This document shows, in pieces, positions 13,908-23,110 of a stretch of DNA of 23,983 nucleotides. Below the pieces are notes generated by a model that saw only the letters and a list, made by a program, of their open reading frames with translations, did not search any database and was not told the DNA's origin. The stretch comes from a virus. How positions within the stretch are numbered: position 1 is the first letter of the stretch; the number at the start of each line of letters is the position of its first letter. The DNA lies in the IMG/VR virus record IMGVR_UViG_3300032299_000147, positions 1 through 23,983 of that record. One strand, given 5' to 3'. The position numbers and the translations under genes were made by a program.

Positions 13908-14285
13908 CTATTTTTTAAACACATCAAGTGTAGGTTTTAATCCGTAGATAGAACCAAATATTCCAACTACTAACCATTTATAAAAATCAGGAAATTTATT
14001 AAAATATTCAAAAAATAAATCTAATTTACTTTGTATCTTTGGGTCTCCTGAAAATATTGACCAAGCTAAAATTAAAATAGGAAGTGTTACTATGACTAAG
14101 ACAAATTCATCTTTCCAACTTTTATCTTGTTCACTTGCAACATCTCTTTGATATTCAATCTCACCTTTAGCCATACGTTCATAATATTTACGTTCAGCTT
14201 CAGATTCTAAAAACTCAGATTGCTTATGATTTTTATAAATTTCTGCACCTGTTTTAAGTACAGTTGGAATTAAACTCCACCACAT
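13908..14285 (-). CDS. Putative holin (GTA-holin / 3TM-like membrane protein)
   Basis: The 125-residue protein has a short hydrophobic N-terminus (1-13) and a charged helical part (20-58). Two clear membrane segments follow at about 61-79 (FVLVIVTLPILILAWSIF) and 102-118 (FYKWLVVGIFGSIYGL). The pattern WKDEFVL, then FPDFYKW, then GSIYGLKPT resembles the holin family first described in gene transfer agents (GTA_holin_3TM). Such a protein would form membrane lesions that let the amidase reach the wall. Its ATG overlaps the stop of the HNH-like gene as TAATG. T7 has its holin (17.5) after the fiber gene, so the position between scaffold and capsid differs. A virion or assembly membrane protein is the alternative. 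Confidence 0.55.
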   Translation of the reverse strand: MWWSLIPTVLKTGAEIYKNHKQSEFLESEAERKYYERMAKGEIEYQRDVASEQDKSWKDEFVLVIVTLPILILAWSIFSGDPKIQSKLDLFFEYFNKFPDFYKWLVVGIFGSIYGLKPTLDVFKK

Positions 14286-18823: not shown

Positions 18824-19206
18824 TATTTTTCTCCGAATTGTTTTATTTGAATGTAAAAATCTACGAGGTCTTTAGCTGGTACGACATAACCAACAGACGT
18901 ATAGGCATCTCCACCTCTTTTAAGTGGATAACCAATTACAAATTTCTTTAATAATTTTAATGGAATACCAATGAATATCTGTTCTTTTCTCTTACCTACC
19001 TCTAAGAAGAATACCCAGTACCTAGCTTTAGATACTTCAATACCTGAAGGTTTTCCTCTACTTTCCTTTTCAATAAATATATTAGAAGTCTTCTTCCATA
19101 ATCTATCTGCTTTTATCTCAACAGTTCCTTCTACTATTTTTTGAAATTCGTTTTCGTACTTTTGACCAAATGCCAAATCTAAATCAAACTTGTTAGTGTG
19201 TTTCAC
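18823..19206 (-). CDS. PD-(D/E)XK nuclease-like protein
   Basis: The 127-residue protein has FDLDLAFGQKYENEF (7-21), then VEIKADRLWKKTSNIFIE (29-46; the E-x-K pair is E30 and K32) and SRGKPSGIEVSKARYW (49-64). A Glu-containing helix, an E-x-K strand and a following N-I-x-I-E strand fit the PD-(D/E)XK fold as seen in small phage proteins I recall with the same RGKPSGI motif. It may cut or process DNA next to the polymerase; activity and substrate are unknown. Start is GTG 19206, inside the last 14 bases of the polymerase gene, with AGGAAG about 9 bases upstream. It ends in a TAATG overlap. Confidence 0.6.
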   Translation of the reverse strand: MKHTNKFDLDLAFGQKYENEFQKIVEGTVEIKADRLWKKTSNIFIEKESRGKPSGIEVSKARYWVFFLEVGKRKEQIFIGIPLKLLKKFVIGYPLKRGGDAYTSVGYVVPAKDLVDFYIQIKQFGEK

Positions 19207-20959
19207 TCCAATTACTTCCTATTTTCATTTCACCTGCCAATGGACATCTAAAATTAAAATGTTTTCTTGTTAGTTCAAAAGTCAAGGAAGCTATAGTTTT
19301 AAAATGTTCTATCTTTTCTTTCCTAACTACAAATTGCATTTCATCATGTATGTGGAGAACCATTGCGTAGTCCTGACCAAACACAAACCCATTACGAATT
19401 AGATTGTCGTTAATAATTATTGTTCCTTGCTTAACAAGCAAAGCTCCAGCAGATTGGATAAGAGTATTTAAAACACTATACTCTGCACGACATATAAGTT
19501 TTCTTCCATCAATACCTTTGACATAGCCAAGATTTCTAAATTTATTTTGAGCTACATCTATTAAAGTTTTTAAAGATGGCAAAACTTCTACAAATCTTTT
19601 TCTTATTCTTTCAGCTTCCGCATTAGAGACGTTAAGAATTTCGCTAATTCTTTTACTTCCAGCACCATATATGAAAGCATATATAAAAGTTTTAGCTTGA
19701 GAACGTGAGGATAATCCGAGAGCAAGTTGATTGGCGGTATGTATATCATCTTCAAGTAATTTCTTTTGAAATTCCCCATTGTCAAAATTATAAAGGTAAT
19801 GACTAAGGACACGAAGCTCAAGACCAGAAAAATCAATACCACACATAACCATATTGGTAGGAGCAATAAACAACTTACGAAATTCGCTACCATATAAACT
19901 GTCTTTACTTGGTACTTGTGCAAGGTTTGGCGAGTGATGCGTACATCTTCCTGTAACTGCTCCGTTGGTGATAACTTTCCCATAAATTTTATTGTTCCTT
20001 GTTAATTTTAAATATGCTTGTTCACCTTCTGCAAGTTGTGAAATTCTTTTCTGTATTAAAAAATGCTCAGATAATATTTTAGCTTCAGGATAAGGAAGTT
20101 CATTTAATATCTTTTCATTTACTTCTACTTTACCTGTTGCGGTAAAATGTTTTGGTTTCCAACCTAATAAGACTTGAAGTCTATTAGCAATGTGGTCTCT
20201 TGAATTTGGATTGAATACTTCAGTTATATACTTTTTAACTGGTACACCTTTTTTATAACCTAAAGTTTTGTTGTCTCTCTTAGGTCTAACAGTCCTGTCA
20301 AATCGTTCCCAGTTTGGGAAGGTTAAAGCTAGTTTTTGTTCCAGCTCTAACCTTCTTTTCGTAAGGGATTGATATAGCCACTCAGAAGCGGTCACATCAA
20401 AATCTACCCCATAATCCTCTTGTTTCTTAATCCAGTAAGCAAACTTATGCTCTAATTCTATAGCTTCTTTAGAGTAGTTTTGGTTCTTAATAAGTTTAAA
20501 TAACTTGTCTGTAATCTCTACATCTCTCTCACAATAGTCTTGCATTGCTTGAGACCATTCTTGAAAATCTTCTTTATCTTTAAAGTCACCTTTTAATAAA
20601 CCAAATCTATAACCATAACTTTCAATAGAATGTTTACCTATAAGTTTAGGTGGGAAAGAATTTAACTTACAGTCTTGTTCAATTCTATTTGTCCAAATTA
20701 GTCTGCTTAATAATAATGTATCAACTACTTCACCATTAAATTTAAAACCATAGACTTTATCTAAAGCAGGTAAGTCAAAAGAAAGTATGTTGTGACCGAT
20801 TAAAGTTTTAGCATTTTTAATTAATTCTAAACCTTCTTTAATATTTTTAGGATTAAATGAATAGAGTTTATTTGTTTCTGTATCTTTACAAACTAAGCAA
20901 TGAATTTTGTTTAATTTATCTAAGAAACCATTTGTTTCAACGTCTATTACTAATTTCAT
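19193..20959 (-). CDS. 5: DNA polymerase, family A (T7 gp5-like)
   Basis: The 588-residue replicative polymerase has an N-terminal 3'-5' exonuclease: IDVET (D6, E8), FDLPALDK (D62) and YCERDVEITDK (D146). The polymerase domain has motif A GIDFSGLELR (D376), motif B RSQAKTFIYAFIYGAG (R419, K423, Y427) and motif C HIHDEMQ (H538, D539, E540). The C-terminus HFNFRCPL-x5-KIGSNWSETH matches T7. T7 gp5 has 704 residues. A large part of the shortfall is in the thumb, where only about 31 residues lie between PNW (215-217) and FNPNSRDHI (249-257), so the thioredoxin-binding loop is much reduced. ATG 20959 follows the stop of the upstream frame-shifted reading by one base. Confidence 0.96.
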   Translation of the reverse strand: MKLVIDVETNGFLDKLNKIHCLVCKDTETNKLYSFNPKNIKEGLELIKNAKTLIGHNILSFDLPALDKVYGFKFNGEVVDTLLLSRLIWTNRIEQDCKLNSFPPKLIGKHSIESYGYRFGLLKGDFKDKEDFQEWSQAMQDYCERDVEITDKLFKLIKNQNYSKEAIELEHKFAYWIKKQEDYGVDFDVTASEWLYQSLTKRRLELEQKLALTFPNWERFDRTVRPKRDNKTLGYKKGVPVKKYITEVFNPNSRDHIANRLQVLLGWKPKHFTATGKVEVNEKILNELPYPEAKILSEHFLIQKRISQLAEGEQAYLKLTRNNKIYGKVITNGAVTGRCTHHSPNLAQVPSKDSLYGSEFRKLFIAPTNMVMCGIDFSGLELRVLSHYLYNFDNGEFQKKLLEDDIHTANQLALGLSSRSQAKTFIYAFIYGAGSKRISEILNVSNAEAERIRKRFVEVLPSLKTLIDVAQNKFRNLGYVKGIDGRKLICRAEYSVLNTLIQSAGALLVKQGTIIINDNLIRNGFVFGQDYAMVLHIHDEMQFVVRKEKIEHFKTIASLTFELTRKHFNFRCPLAGEMKIGSNWSETH

Positions 20960-20960
20960 A

Positions 20961-21100
20961 TTAATTTATTTTGTAACAACCAGTGAGAACTATTCTCTCA
21001 CCATTGTACGTTAATTTATTTTTTGTAAATTTTTCTATTGCTTGAGTGCAGGTATCACCTTTATCTATTGATAAAGTATAAGTTTGGTTATCTGTTTTTA
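20961..21100 (-). other. -1 frame continuation of the small membrane protein gene
   Basis: Starting with ATA at 21101-21099, the -1 frame stays open for 46 codons and ends in TAA at 20963-20961, one base before the polymerase ATG. It reads IKTDNQTYTLSIDKGDTC, then a charged helix-like AIEKFTKNK and GERIVLTGCYKIN. Composition and the tight stop-start spacing are those of a coding region. It has no start codon of its own, so it could be made only as an extension of the upstream frame. Joined to that frame it would give a 101-residue membrane-anchored protein with two Cys in the outer part. Confidence 0.55.
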
Positions 21101-21265
21101 TAAAAAAAAATATTTAGCTAAACTAAATTGTTTAGTTACGATGTAAACAAAAGCTACCAGAACTAATATAAATATAACTATTGCAAAAATATTTCTTATA
21201 CGTTCAGTTCTTGCAATTTGTCTAGCAACTTGTTCTCTAAATTTTTGTAAAATAAAATTATCCAT
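21098..21265 (-). CDS. Small single-pass membrane protein, 55 residues (frame likely continues by -1 shift)
   Basis: ATG 21265 opens a 55-codon frame ending in TAA at 21100-21098. The product starts MDNFILQKFREQVARQIART, a basic amphipathic part (Arg at 10, 15, 19, 22, 24). A membrane segment NIFAIVIFILVLVAFVYIV (25-43) and a short tail KQFSLAKYFFL follow. Positive charges before the segment predict N-inside, C-outside. The frame stops right after a run of nine T, while the -1 frame is open for another 46 codons. It sits between the 89-codon gene and the polymerase. Its function is unknown; small membrane proteins at this place in T7-like phages may act on the host envelope. Confidence 0.6.
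   Translation of the reverse strand: MDNFILQKFREQVARQIARTERIRNIFAIVIFILVLVAFVYIVTKQFSLAKYFFL
21101..21107 (-). promoter_or_regulatory. Candidate -1 slippery heptamer U UUU UUA
   Basis: In the frame of the small membrane protein the mRNA reads UAU UUU UUU UUA UAA, so U UUU UUA stands in the exact register of a canonical X XXY YYZ heptamer, with a stop codon next to it. A 7-bp hairpin CUUUAUC-AAUA-GAUAAAG lies downstream at 21076-21059, about 24 bases after the heptamer. That is farther than the usual 5-9 bases, so the stimulator is doubtful. A missing T in a homopolymer is the main alternative. Confidence 0.4.
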
Positions 21266-21267
21266 AA

Positions 21268-21537
21268 TTAATGTATTTGAGTTATTGTTATTTTATCTGT
21301 ACTTGGGAGAAACTCTGCTATGCTTGTCATTGCTTTTGAAATTACTTTCTTAGCTTCGGCATCTCCACACATTATAACTGGAAAAACATTTTCATATCTA
21401 ATTGCATTATAGATTGCAGTCATAATAGTTTGACAAGTTTCATACACAACTTGCTTCTGTTCTATAGACAGACTTAAGTAATCTGGTTTCTCAACTAGAT
21501 AACCTAATATAAATTTTCCTAATATTTGTTTATTCAT
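21268..21537 (-). CDS. Hypothetical protein, 89 residues
   Basis: The ATG at 21537 (preceded in frame by a TTG) lies inside the end of the primase-helicase gene as ATGAATAA, with AAGG about 8 bases upstream, so the two are translationally coupled. The product starts MNKQILGKFILGYLVEKPDY and continues with helices around YETCQTIMTAIYNAIRYE (33-50) and PVIMCGDAEAKKVISKAM (53-70). It has no membrane segment and no recognised family. The stop TAA at 21270-21268 lies 2 bases before the start of the small membrane protein gene. Confidence 0.75.
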   Translation of the reverse strand: MNKQILGKFILGYLVEKPDYLSLSIEQKQVVYETCQTIMTAIYNAIRYENVFPVIMCGDAEAKKVISKAMTSIAEFLPSTDKITITQIH

Positions 21538-23110
21538 CAAATGTACCTTCTGTTAATCTTCCTGTTTGTTTGTCGTAAATTAATGTTGTTGCAATTCCAG
21601 TGTCACCACTGAACCTGTTCTTTAAAACTCTAACTTGCATTACATTGCTATCGCTTTCAGATTGTTGATTTCTTTCAAAACCAATTACTGCATCTGATAA
21701 TTGAGCTAATGAGTGAGAACCTCTTAATTGATTTAAAGAAGTAACTTGTCCTTCTTCATGTCCTTTACCTTCAGGTCTTTTTAAGTGTGAGACAACAAAC
21801 ATTGCACACTTTAATTCTTCAACTAAACTTCTTAGTTTAGTCATTGTGTTGTCTATTAATCTTCTCTCATCACCTTCTTCTATGCCTGAAATAACAATAG
21901 ATATGTGGTCTAAGAATATAACTTTGCAGTCTAACCCTTGTACCATATAGCGAATACGACCTATTAAATCTTCACTATCACTAGAACCAAAGTGGTCGTA
22001 GAAACAAATCTTATCTTTTATATTTTCCCAAGCAGTAACAATAAGTTCTTCTGGTATTGTTTTCTTTACTTCAGGATTATGTATTGGAGCATTAAGTGGG
22101 ATTGAAACAATTCCTCTAATACTTCTCTTAACACTTTCTTCTAAAGCAATGTAACCAACTTTAAATCCTCTACTAATAATGTCATAAGCAATTTCTCTAC
22201 ATACTTGAGATTTACCTGTGCCTGAACCAGCAGTTAATAATGTAAGTTCTCCAAATCTTATTCCTGAAAGTTTTTGATTTAAACCATTCCAACAATAAGG
22301 AATACTTTCAGATGCTTCATCTATAAGTAATAATTCTTTTGTATCTTCTCCTAATATAATTCCTTGAGGTGTATATGGTTTAGCTCCCCATATTGCGTCT
22401 ATAACTTTATCACCTTTGTTATCTAATAATAATTCGTTAGCATCTTTACCATGAAGTTTTGCAATCTTAACTTTCTTAACTGGAAGAATTGATGCACAAT
22501 CAATGGAAGCAGAAATACCTGCTTCATCGTTGTCAAACATAAGAACAATGCTGTCAAACTTAGAAAGCCATTCTAATTCTTTTTTAATATATTTTTTAGC
22601 TGATGTAGCTCCTGATGGTACAGAGACAACTGGATATTTATTATTCTGAAGTTGGGAAACAGACATAGCATCTATCTCCCCTTCAGTTATGATAACCATT
22701 CTACCGCCATCTCTCCAGCTTTGTTGTCCAAAGAGAGTGATTGAATTTACATCACCTAGCCAAATAAAAGATTTATCAACGAATCTTAAATGTTGGGCTA
22801 CTTTCTTATAACTTTTATCAAAGTAGTTTGCGATATGAACTGGCTTATCTTTGTAAAAACCAATTTCATAATTAAATACTTTACAGGTATCTGAGTTAAT
22901 TTTTCTTTTTGGTAATGCTTGTATTGTTCCGTCAATCATATCAGTCCTTACTTTTGGAATTTGTGTTGTGTCTTGTGGTGCGTTAAAATATTTTGTTTCT
23001 TTGCAACCGAAGCAATGTGTGTGGTCTGTATAGACACCTAAATTATCCTTAGAACCGCAATCAGGACAAGGAGAGTGTCTTATAAAAGAACTTTCATTAT
23101 TAGAGTTCAC
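21530..23110 (-). CDS. 4: DNA primase-helicase (T7 gp4-like)
   Basis: The 526-residue bifunctional protein makes RNA primers and unwinds DNA at the fork as a hexamer. It has a zinc-binding domain (C15, C18, C33, C36), a TOPRIM primase domain with ITEGEID (141-147) and MFDNDEAG (191-198), KDANE (222-226), and a RecA-like helicase. The helicase shows Walker A GSGTGKS (295-301), Walker B VIFLDH (397-402), SHLKRP (441-446), HEEG and QLRGSHSLAQLSD (461-473), and FERNQQ (478-483). All have T7 gp4 counterparts. T7 gp4 (566 residues) ends in an acidic tail with terminal Phe; here the protein stops at TEGTFDE with no such tail. Start is GTG 23110, overlapping the amidase by 11 bases. An internal ATG at codon 58 has its own ribosome binding site. 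Confidence 0.96.
   Translation of the reverse strand: MNSNNESSFIRHSPCPDCGSKDNLGVYTDHTHCFGCKETKYFNAPQDTTQIPKVRTDMIDGTIQALPKRKINSDTCKVFNYEIGFYKDKPVHIANYFDKSYKKVAQHLRFVDKSFIWLGDVNSITLFGQQSWRDGGRMVIITEGEIDAMSVSQLQNNKYPVVSVPSGATSAKKYIKKELEWLSKFDSIVLMFDNDEAGISASIDCASILPVKKVKIAKLHGKDANELLLDNKGDKVIDAIWGAKPYTPQGIILGEDTKELLLIDEASESIPYCWNGLNQKLSGIRFGELTLLTAGSGTGKSQVCREIAYDIISRGFKVGYIALEESVKRSIRGIVSIPLNAPIHNPEVKKTIPEELIVTAWENIKDKICFYDHFGSSDSEDLIGRIRYMVQGLDCKVIFLDHISIVISGIEEGDERRLIDNTMTKLRSLVEELKCAMFVVSHLKRPEGKGHEEGQVTSLNQLRGSHSLAQLSDAVIGFERNQQSESDSNVMQVRVLKNRFSGDTGIATTLIYDKQTGRLTEGTFDE
22937..22949 (-). promoter_or_regulatory. Internal ribosome binding site and start (gp4B-like) in the primase-helicase gene
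   Basis: Codon 58 of the primase-helicase gene is ATG (22939-22937) and is preceded by TAAGGA with a 5-base spacer, a better signal than the one before the full-length GTG start. Translation from here would remove the zinc-binding domain (ends near residue 36) and keep the TOPRIM and helicase domains. T7 gene 4 makes a 4B helicase from an internal start at codon 64. Confidence 0.6.

Follow-up and report, generated by a model that had tools for sequence, protein, structure and literature searches.

Does the split membrane-protein gene that precedes the DNA polymerase gene in the virus record IMGVR_UViG_3300032299_000147 encode one product or two? This record of 23,983 bases (31% G+C), which was analyzed over its whole length and is referred to here as the window, has as its nearest named relatives by gene content the Autographiviridae Pelagibacter phages HTVC041P, HTVC025P and Eyrgjafa. 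Its minus strand, on which all window features given below are located, carries in this order endonuclease I, an amidase, a primase/helicase, an ORF of 90 aa, the gene in question and DNA polymerase A. We consider, with a probability of roughly 0.87, that the gene makes two membrane proteins by programmed recoding at a conserved run of eight or nine T (T8/T9), since the site is conserved, the -1 frame is coding, a start codon for that frame is not conserved, and no intact version of the gene was found.

The first-pass annotation had described a 55-codon membrane-protein frame stopping right after nine T, followed by a -1 frame that lacks a start of its own, spans 46 more codons without a stop and reaches to one base before the polymerase ATG. 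The sequence confirmed these observations exactly. The zero-frame ORF (21098..21265) encodes an anchor of 55 aa with a basic cytoplasmic N-terminal tail, one membrane helix and a C-terminus reading ...SLAKYFFL; its 3' end is AAA TAT TTT TTT TTA TAA (K Y F F L stop), with the TAA stop at 21098..21100. The nine T occupy positions 21102..21110, and no other run of eight or more T is present on the coding strand in the whole 24 kb. Two heptamers in this stretch, U_UUU_UUU (21110-21104) and U_UUU_UUA (21107-21101), are in phase with the zero frame. The -1 frame (20961..21101; 46 codons and a stop; IKTDNQTYTLSIDKGDTCTQAIEKFTKNKLTYNGERIVLTGCYKIN) starts with ATA at 21101 and ends with TAA at 20963-20961, and the peptide sequences TDNQTYTLSIDK and IVLTGCYK are encoded in it; a stop codon in the same frame lies just upstream of the T-run, and no ATG, GTG or TTG is available as a start. 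The upstream 90-aa ORF (21268..21540) ends two bases before the ATG of the anchor gene. Downstream, the family A DNA polymerase gene (polA, 19193..20959) begins with an ATG at 20959, one base past the -1 stop, and no Shine-Dalgarno-like motif is found ahead of it in the window.

Homologues were sought in IMG/VR with the polymerase, the fused protein, its alignment, an amidase and two DNA patterns as queries, and alleles were gathered by a two-half HMM scan; 22 distinct alleles reach the site, and 21 of them extend through the downstream frame. These alleles were drawn from 24 metagenomes and the window, and the offset between the two frames is identical in all 26 contigs (the window and 25 others). 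Every homologue is a metagenomic contig, with none from isolates: none was found in 50,697 phage records or, at the sensitivity used, in 84,980 bacterial and archaeal genomes, and the gene is missing from the named relatives HTVC041P, HTVC025P and Eyrgjafa. All alleles follow the pattern [T/A][A/C]T TTT TTT T, then TA, TG, CA or CG, and then TAA or TAG, the stop coming right after the codon that closes the T-run. The T8 core is kept in 22/22 alleles, and among those reaching through the downstream frame the run is T9 in 13/21 and T8 in 8/21. A C always follows T8, and either A or G always follows T9, so that the two frames keep a constant relation. Moreover, the open length of the -1 frame is 45-52 codons in 21/21 alleles, and the anchor measures 55-56 aa in every complete homologue.

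Relatives with ten T and one continuous frame, which the first-pass annotation had named as evidence against recoding, were looked for, and none was present among the 22 alleles. The HMM scan returned no ORF matching both halves, and a profile scan with [AS]KYFFF[IV], able to match an uninterrupted form, found none. In addition, a search of 2.9 million viral contigs for uninterrupted T10 or T9C forms gave 8 matches, of which 0 were related.

The properties of the downstream frame are those of a coding sequence. Across the 13 alignable alleles, dN/dS (NG86) was approximately 0.34 for the second half read in the -1 frame versus 0.60 for the first half, pN/pS on the same DNA was 0.41 in the -1 frame versus 1.27 and 1.53 in the other two frames, and stop codons were absent from the -1 frame and many in the other two. 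By these substitution measures, the -1 frame is under protein-level purifying selection. Even among the alleles furthest from the window (41-71% identity to it), residues K51, F53, F54, F55, T58, C73, T95, G96 and C97 are invariant across the junction. A separate start for the second half was rejected: ATG, GTG and TTG are lacking, and the lone upstream near-start codon, ATA, is GTA in one allele (L014) and AAA in another (L010). A shift in the opposite direction was rejected as well, as the +1 frame closes within a few codons in the alleles checked.

AlphaFold2 applied to 17 second halves gave a predicted beta-beta-alpha-beta domain (pLDDT 91.8, pTM 0.71), in which strand 1 contains FFF(I/V), its FFF being encoded by the T-run, and the two invariant Cys sit where the helix begins and where strand 3 ends. 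The full-length protein, modeled from a single sequence (pLDDT 81) and one F short owing to the code used for the T-run, shows an N-terminal helix of 46 residues and, after it, this domain. No credible sequence or profile match was obtained in Pfam, PHROGs, NCBIfam, PADLOC or PDB, and a fold search including solved structures and viral folds returned nothing credible (best match E 0.39). It had been suggested at first sight of the DNA that the second part, with its two Cys, would be periplasmic, and this is supported by the positive-inside topology, the invariance of the Cys and the confident fold; the basic N-terminal tail, the lone membrane segment and the invariant Cys pair lead us to infer a periplasmic and disulfide-bonded domain.

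Straight reading of the gene would give the 55-residue anchor, with a basic tail in the cytoplasm, one helix in the membrane and an end shortly after the chain leaves it. With a net -1 shift the product would grow to approximately 101 residues; the shift could come from an extra U that a T7-type RNA polymerase adds, or from ribosomes slipping by -1 on U_UUU_UU(U/A/G). Beyond the membrane, on its outer face, the long form would bear the small beta-beta-alpha-beta domain, which a disulfide probably closes, and the anchor form may dilute or regulate the long form. Since the T-run encodes the first strand of the domain (FFF), slip site and fold may be regarded as one unit. Conservation of the site, the coding -1 frame, the lack of an intact version and use of the site at two genome positions were directly observed, and we infer the presence of both predicted products.

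We then focused on what slips. A ribosomal -1 shift at U UUU UUA had been proposed initially, with the heptamer in the canonical register and the zero-frame stop adjacent. The register was borne out, as U_UUU_UUU is in zero-frame phase in 21/21 alleles having the frame, and the stop lies within one codon of the site in all. Programmed use of the -1 frame is likewise strongly supported, but the mechanism as named is one of two candidates, and a T7-type RNA polymerase slipping on the run explains the data at least as well: U_UUU_UUA or U_UUU_UUG is found only in the 13 T9 alleles, the other 8/21 carrying T8 followed by CA or CG, and no stimulator is conserved. Alignment of related phages, suggested as a check, thus showed a conserved downstream frame (21/21) but not a conserved U UUU UUA. 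The element common to all alleles is instead a T8 beginning at the third base of codon 52, a codon that encodes Tyr, Asn or Ser and yet always ends in T; elsewhere in the family, Tyr codons number 79 TAT versus 56 TAC (raw counts, which ignore phylogenetic dependence). No conserved stem-loop was detected in the 70 nt downstream, where pseudoknot-free folds of the single alleles disagree and several reach only -2.5 to -5 kcal/mol, and no upstream Shine-Dalgarno-like or AGG-rich motif is conserved among the alleles. The hairpin noticed earlier about 24 bases downstream does form in the window, and its closest relatives have it too (-8 to -11 kcal/mol); elsewhere it is absent or different, and it was rejected as a stimulator.

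The T8 core, the lack of conserved RNA structure and the T7-type polymerase of the carriers make transcriptional slippage at least as likely as ribosomal slippage. We see about an even chance that the single-subunit RNA polymerase of the phage inserts one U, with a U9/U10 fraction of the mRNA encoding the long form. What is conserved is a run length rather than one heptamer, no stimulatory RNA structure accompanies it across the alleles, and a T7-type RNA polymerase gene was found in 10 of the 15 carrier contigs searched (all of these records are partial, and the rest are short or partial). With T7 RNA polymerase, nucleotide insertion on T runs is reported to restore -1 reporters to up to approximately 50% of the in-frame level, and the host polymerase is reported to reach approximately 10% on T7/T8 runs (PMC6260861). 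Moreover, runs of 6-7 A or T are rarer in the genes of the window than synonymous shuffles predict. Nevertheless, A8 runs are tolerated in several window genes, even though T7 RNA polymerase inserts more readily on A runs than on T runs (PMC6260861), and the heptamer also sits in the exact ribosomal phase.

A translational shift, i.e., a tandem tRNA-Phe slip on U_UUU_UUU or a Phe/Leu slip on U_UUU_UUA, aided by the adjacent stop, has in our view a somewhat less than even chance. The X_XXY_YYZ phase kept in 21/21 alleles and the stop within one codon in all of them are in its favor; nevertheless, no downstream structure or Shine-Dalgarno-like element is conserved, and two ordinary genes of the window also contain U_UUU_UUA in frame, with shorter T runs. 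Compared with A_AAA_AAG, both U_UUU_UUA and U_UUU_UUU are far less shift-prone in E. coli (PMC5009743), and this weakness of U-only heptamers, together with the lack of a conserved stimulator, argues against an efficient shift that is purely ribosomal. Overall, we place transcriptional slightly ahead of ribosomal slippage, and both could contribute.

It was also considered that the shift might mainly tune the number of ribosomes reaching polA or the amidase gene by translational coupling, the extra domain being secondary. Coupling is possible because the -1 stop abuts the next start (it lies a few bases before it in most alleles, with the zero-frame stop approximately 140 bases away) and because polA in the window has no Shine-Dalgarno-like motif. 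As the main role of the shift it appears unlikely, however, given that the extra domain is under protein-level selection and has invariant Cys and a confident predicted fold, and that, where relatives lack the gene, the 90-aa ORF is simply coupled to polA. Coupling therefore fits as an added effect and not as the reason for the domain.

A phase-variable contingency tract, in which DNA slippage alters the run length and toggles the long form, would be in agreement with a homopolymer of 8-9 T inside a membrane-protein gene, but is highly improbable, as no allele has the 'on' length, the targeted T10/T9C scan was negative and the offset is always -1. Least probable by far is that one T was lost by a sequencing or assembly error from a gene that is truly one frame, the option that the first-pass annotation had set beside a programmed short anchor and an approximately 101-residue form: homopolymers are the usual spot for such errors, but the same error would have to recur in every data set, as 26 contigs share the offset, shorter T8 runs followed by C among them, and no T10 or T9C homologue was found, so that the missing T was rejected and the programmed option is strongly supported.

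The gene occurs at more than one genome position. Most carriers have it between the 90-aa ORF and polA; L089, L114, L118, L177 and L227 have it, with the same slip site, next to endonuclease I on one side and the amidase on the other. The slot at window positions 20960-21267, with equivalents in L022, L023 and L048, is an accessory insertion point that separates the 90-aa ORF from polA; in some relatives it holds a short Cys-rich ORF resembling a zinc ribbon, and in others nothing.

The two halves of the gene may have different histories. L016 is approximately 95% identical to L018 in the first half and both flanks of the gene, whereas its second half, from the T-run to the stop (L016:2796-2939), shares 96% identity with L252 and just 65% with L018. 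These identities suggest that the downstream half was probably exchanged alone between lineages, the junction falling at the slip site. L016 could be an assembly chimera, since it shares one metagenome with L251 (close to L252), but its exchanged segment differs from L251, and the sequence on either side is again of the L018 type. We tentatively propose, at odds clearly short of even, that T7-like phages near the pelagiphages use their own error-prone polymerase to add one U at T8/T9 and so attach an exchangeable outer domain, the run being at once slip site, first-strand code and domain-exchange junction.

As to function, the gene is accessory, being missing in near relatives, and is less conserved than the neighboring polymerase. 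Its product would be an envelope factor made of a membrane anchor and a probably exchangeable outer domain, accompanied by a domain-less form. An accessory role at the envelope, e.g., in superinfection exclusion or another envelope interaction, is the leading candidate on the basis of topology, position and mosaic evolution, though with low confidence; no sequence link to superinfection-exclusion membrane proteins was found. Lysis control next to the amidase is a less likely possibility.

Two other ORFs of the window also have hydrophobic or membrane segments. A 125-aa protein with membrane segments (13908-14285) matches phrog_2524 (E 3e-24) and is a possible holin candidate. Nested inside polA in the +1 frame, an ORF of 126 aa (19603-19983) encodes several hydrophobic segments, and its frame is open for 132-146 codons in 30/30 polA relatives examined; synonymous-codon shuffles of polA gave mean open lengths of 42-57 codons and reached 132 once in 1800. 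Synonymous differences in polA were 0.28 inside the nested ORF versus 0.34 outside, the lowest values (0.20-0.23) being at codons 393-448. Such figures are compatible with an overprinted membrane-protein gene as a possibility.

The gene adds a protein family and a predicted fold without known match, in T7-like phages that are closest, among named ones, to phages of the very abundant Pelagibacter. Gene callers would report just a 55-aa stub. The probable recoding has been kept although the gene changed its place in the genome and, probably, one of its domains; the locus gives a clean test of the deliberate use of phage RNA polymerase slippage.

Among known systems, the tail assembly chaperones (lambda G/GT type) also have a conserved phage shift that gives two products, but gene, position and site are different, and we know of no conserved T homopolymer at their frameshift sites. 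Annotated phage frameshifts are nearly all in tail chaperones (2397 of 2476; PMC10885494), with a few in capsid genes, whereas the present one is in an unannotated accessory membrane protein. Within the Autographiviridae, gene 10A/10B of T7/T3 likewise uses a -1 shift to give a minor, C-terminally extended product (PMC5009743); however, that product is a structural capsid protein and not a membrane protein, and its shift involves a slip sequence of the G_GU type and a far-downstream stimulator. In Thermus dnaX and in the T9 run of Shigella mxiE, a run of nine A or T shifts the frame by RNA polymerase slippage (PMC6260861), as may occur here, but those genes are read by the bacterial multi-subunit enzyme, whereas the carrier phages encode a single-subunit T7-type polymerase, and the phage product, unlike theirs, is a membrane-anchored domain. 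No earlier description of this frameshifted gene was found in the literature searched. Recoding as such is known; as far as could be checked, a shift that is driven by a homopolymer and adds a domain to an accessory membrane protein of a phage would be new.

The nearest functional parallel, with no known common descent, appears to be alphavirus 6K/TransFrame (TF), a small membrane protein that is either read straight or gains a new C-terminus by a -1 shift at U UUU UUA near a membrane segment (PMC12197650). No sequence relation between the two was found, and they differ in several respects. Alphaviruses are animal RNA viruses with described 3' stimulatory structures, whereas no such structure is conserved in the phage gene; and the zero frame of 6K continues into E1, whereas that of the phage gene stops at once.
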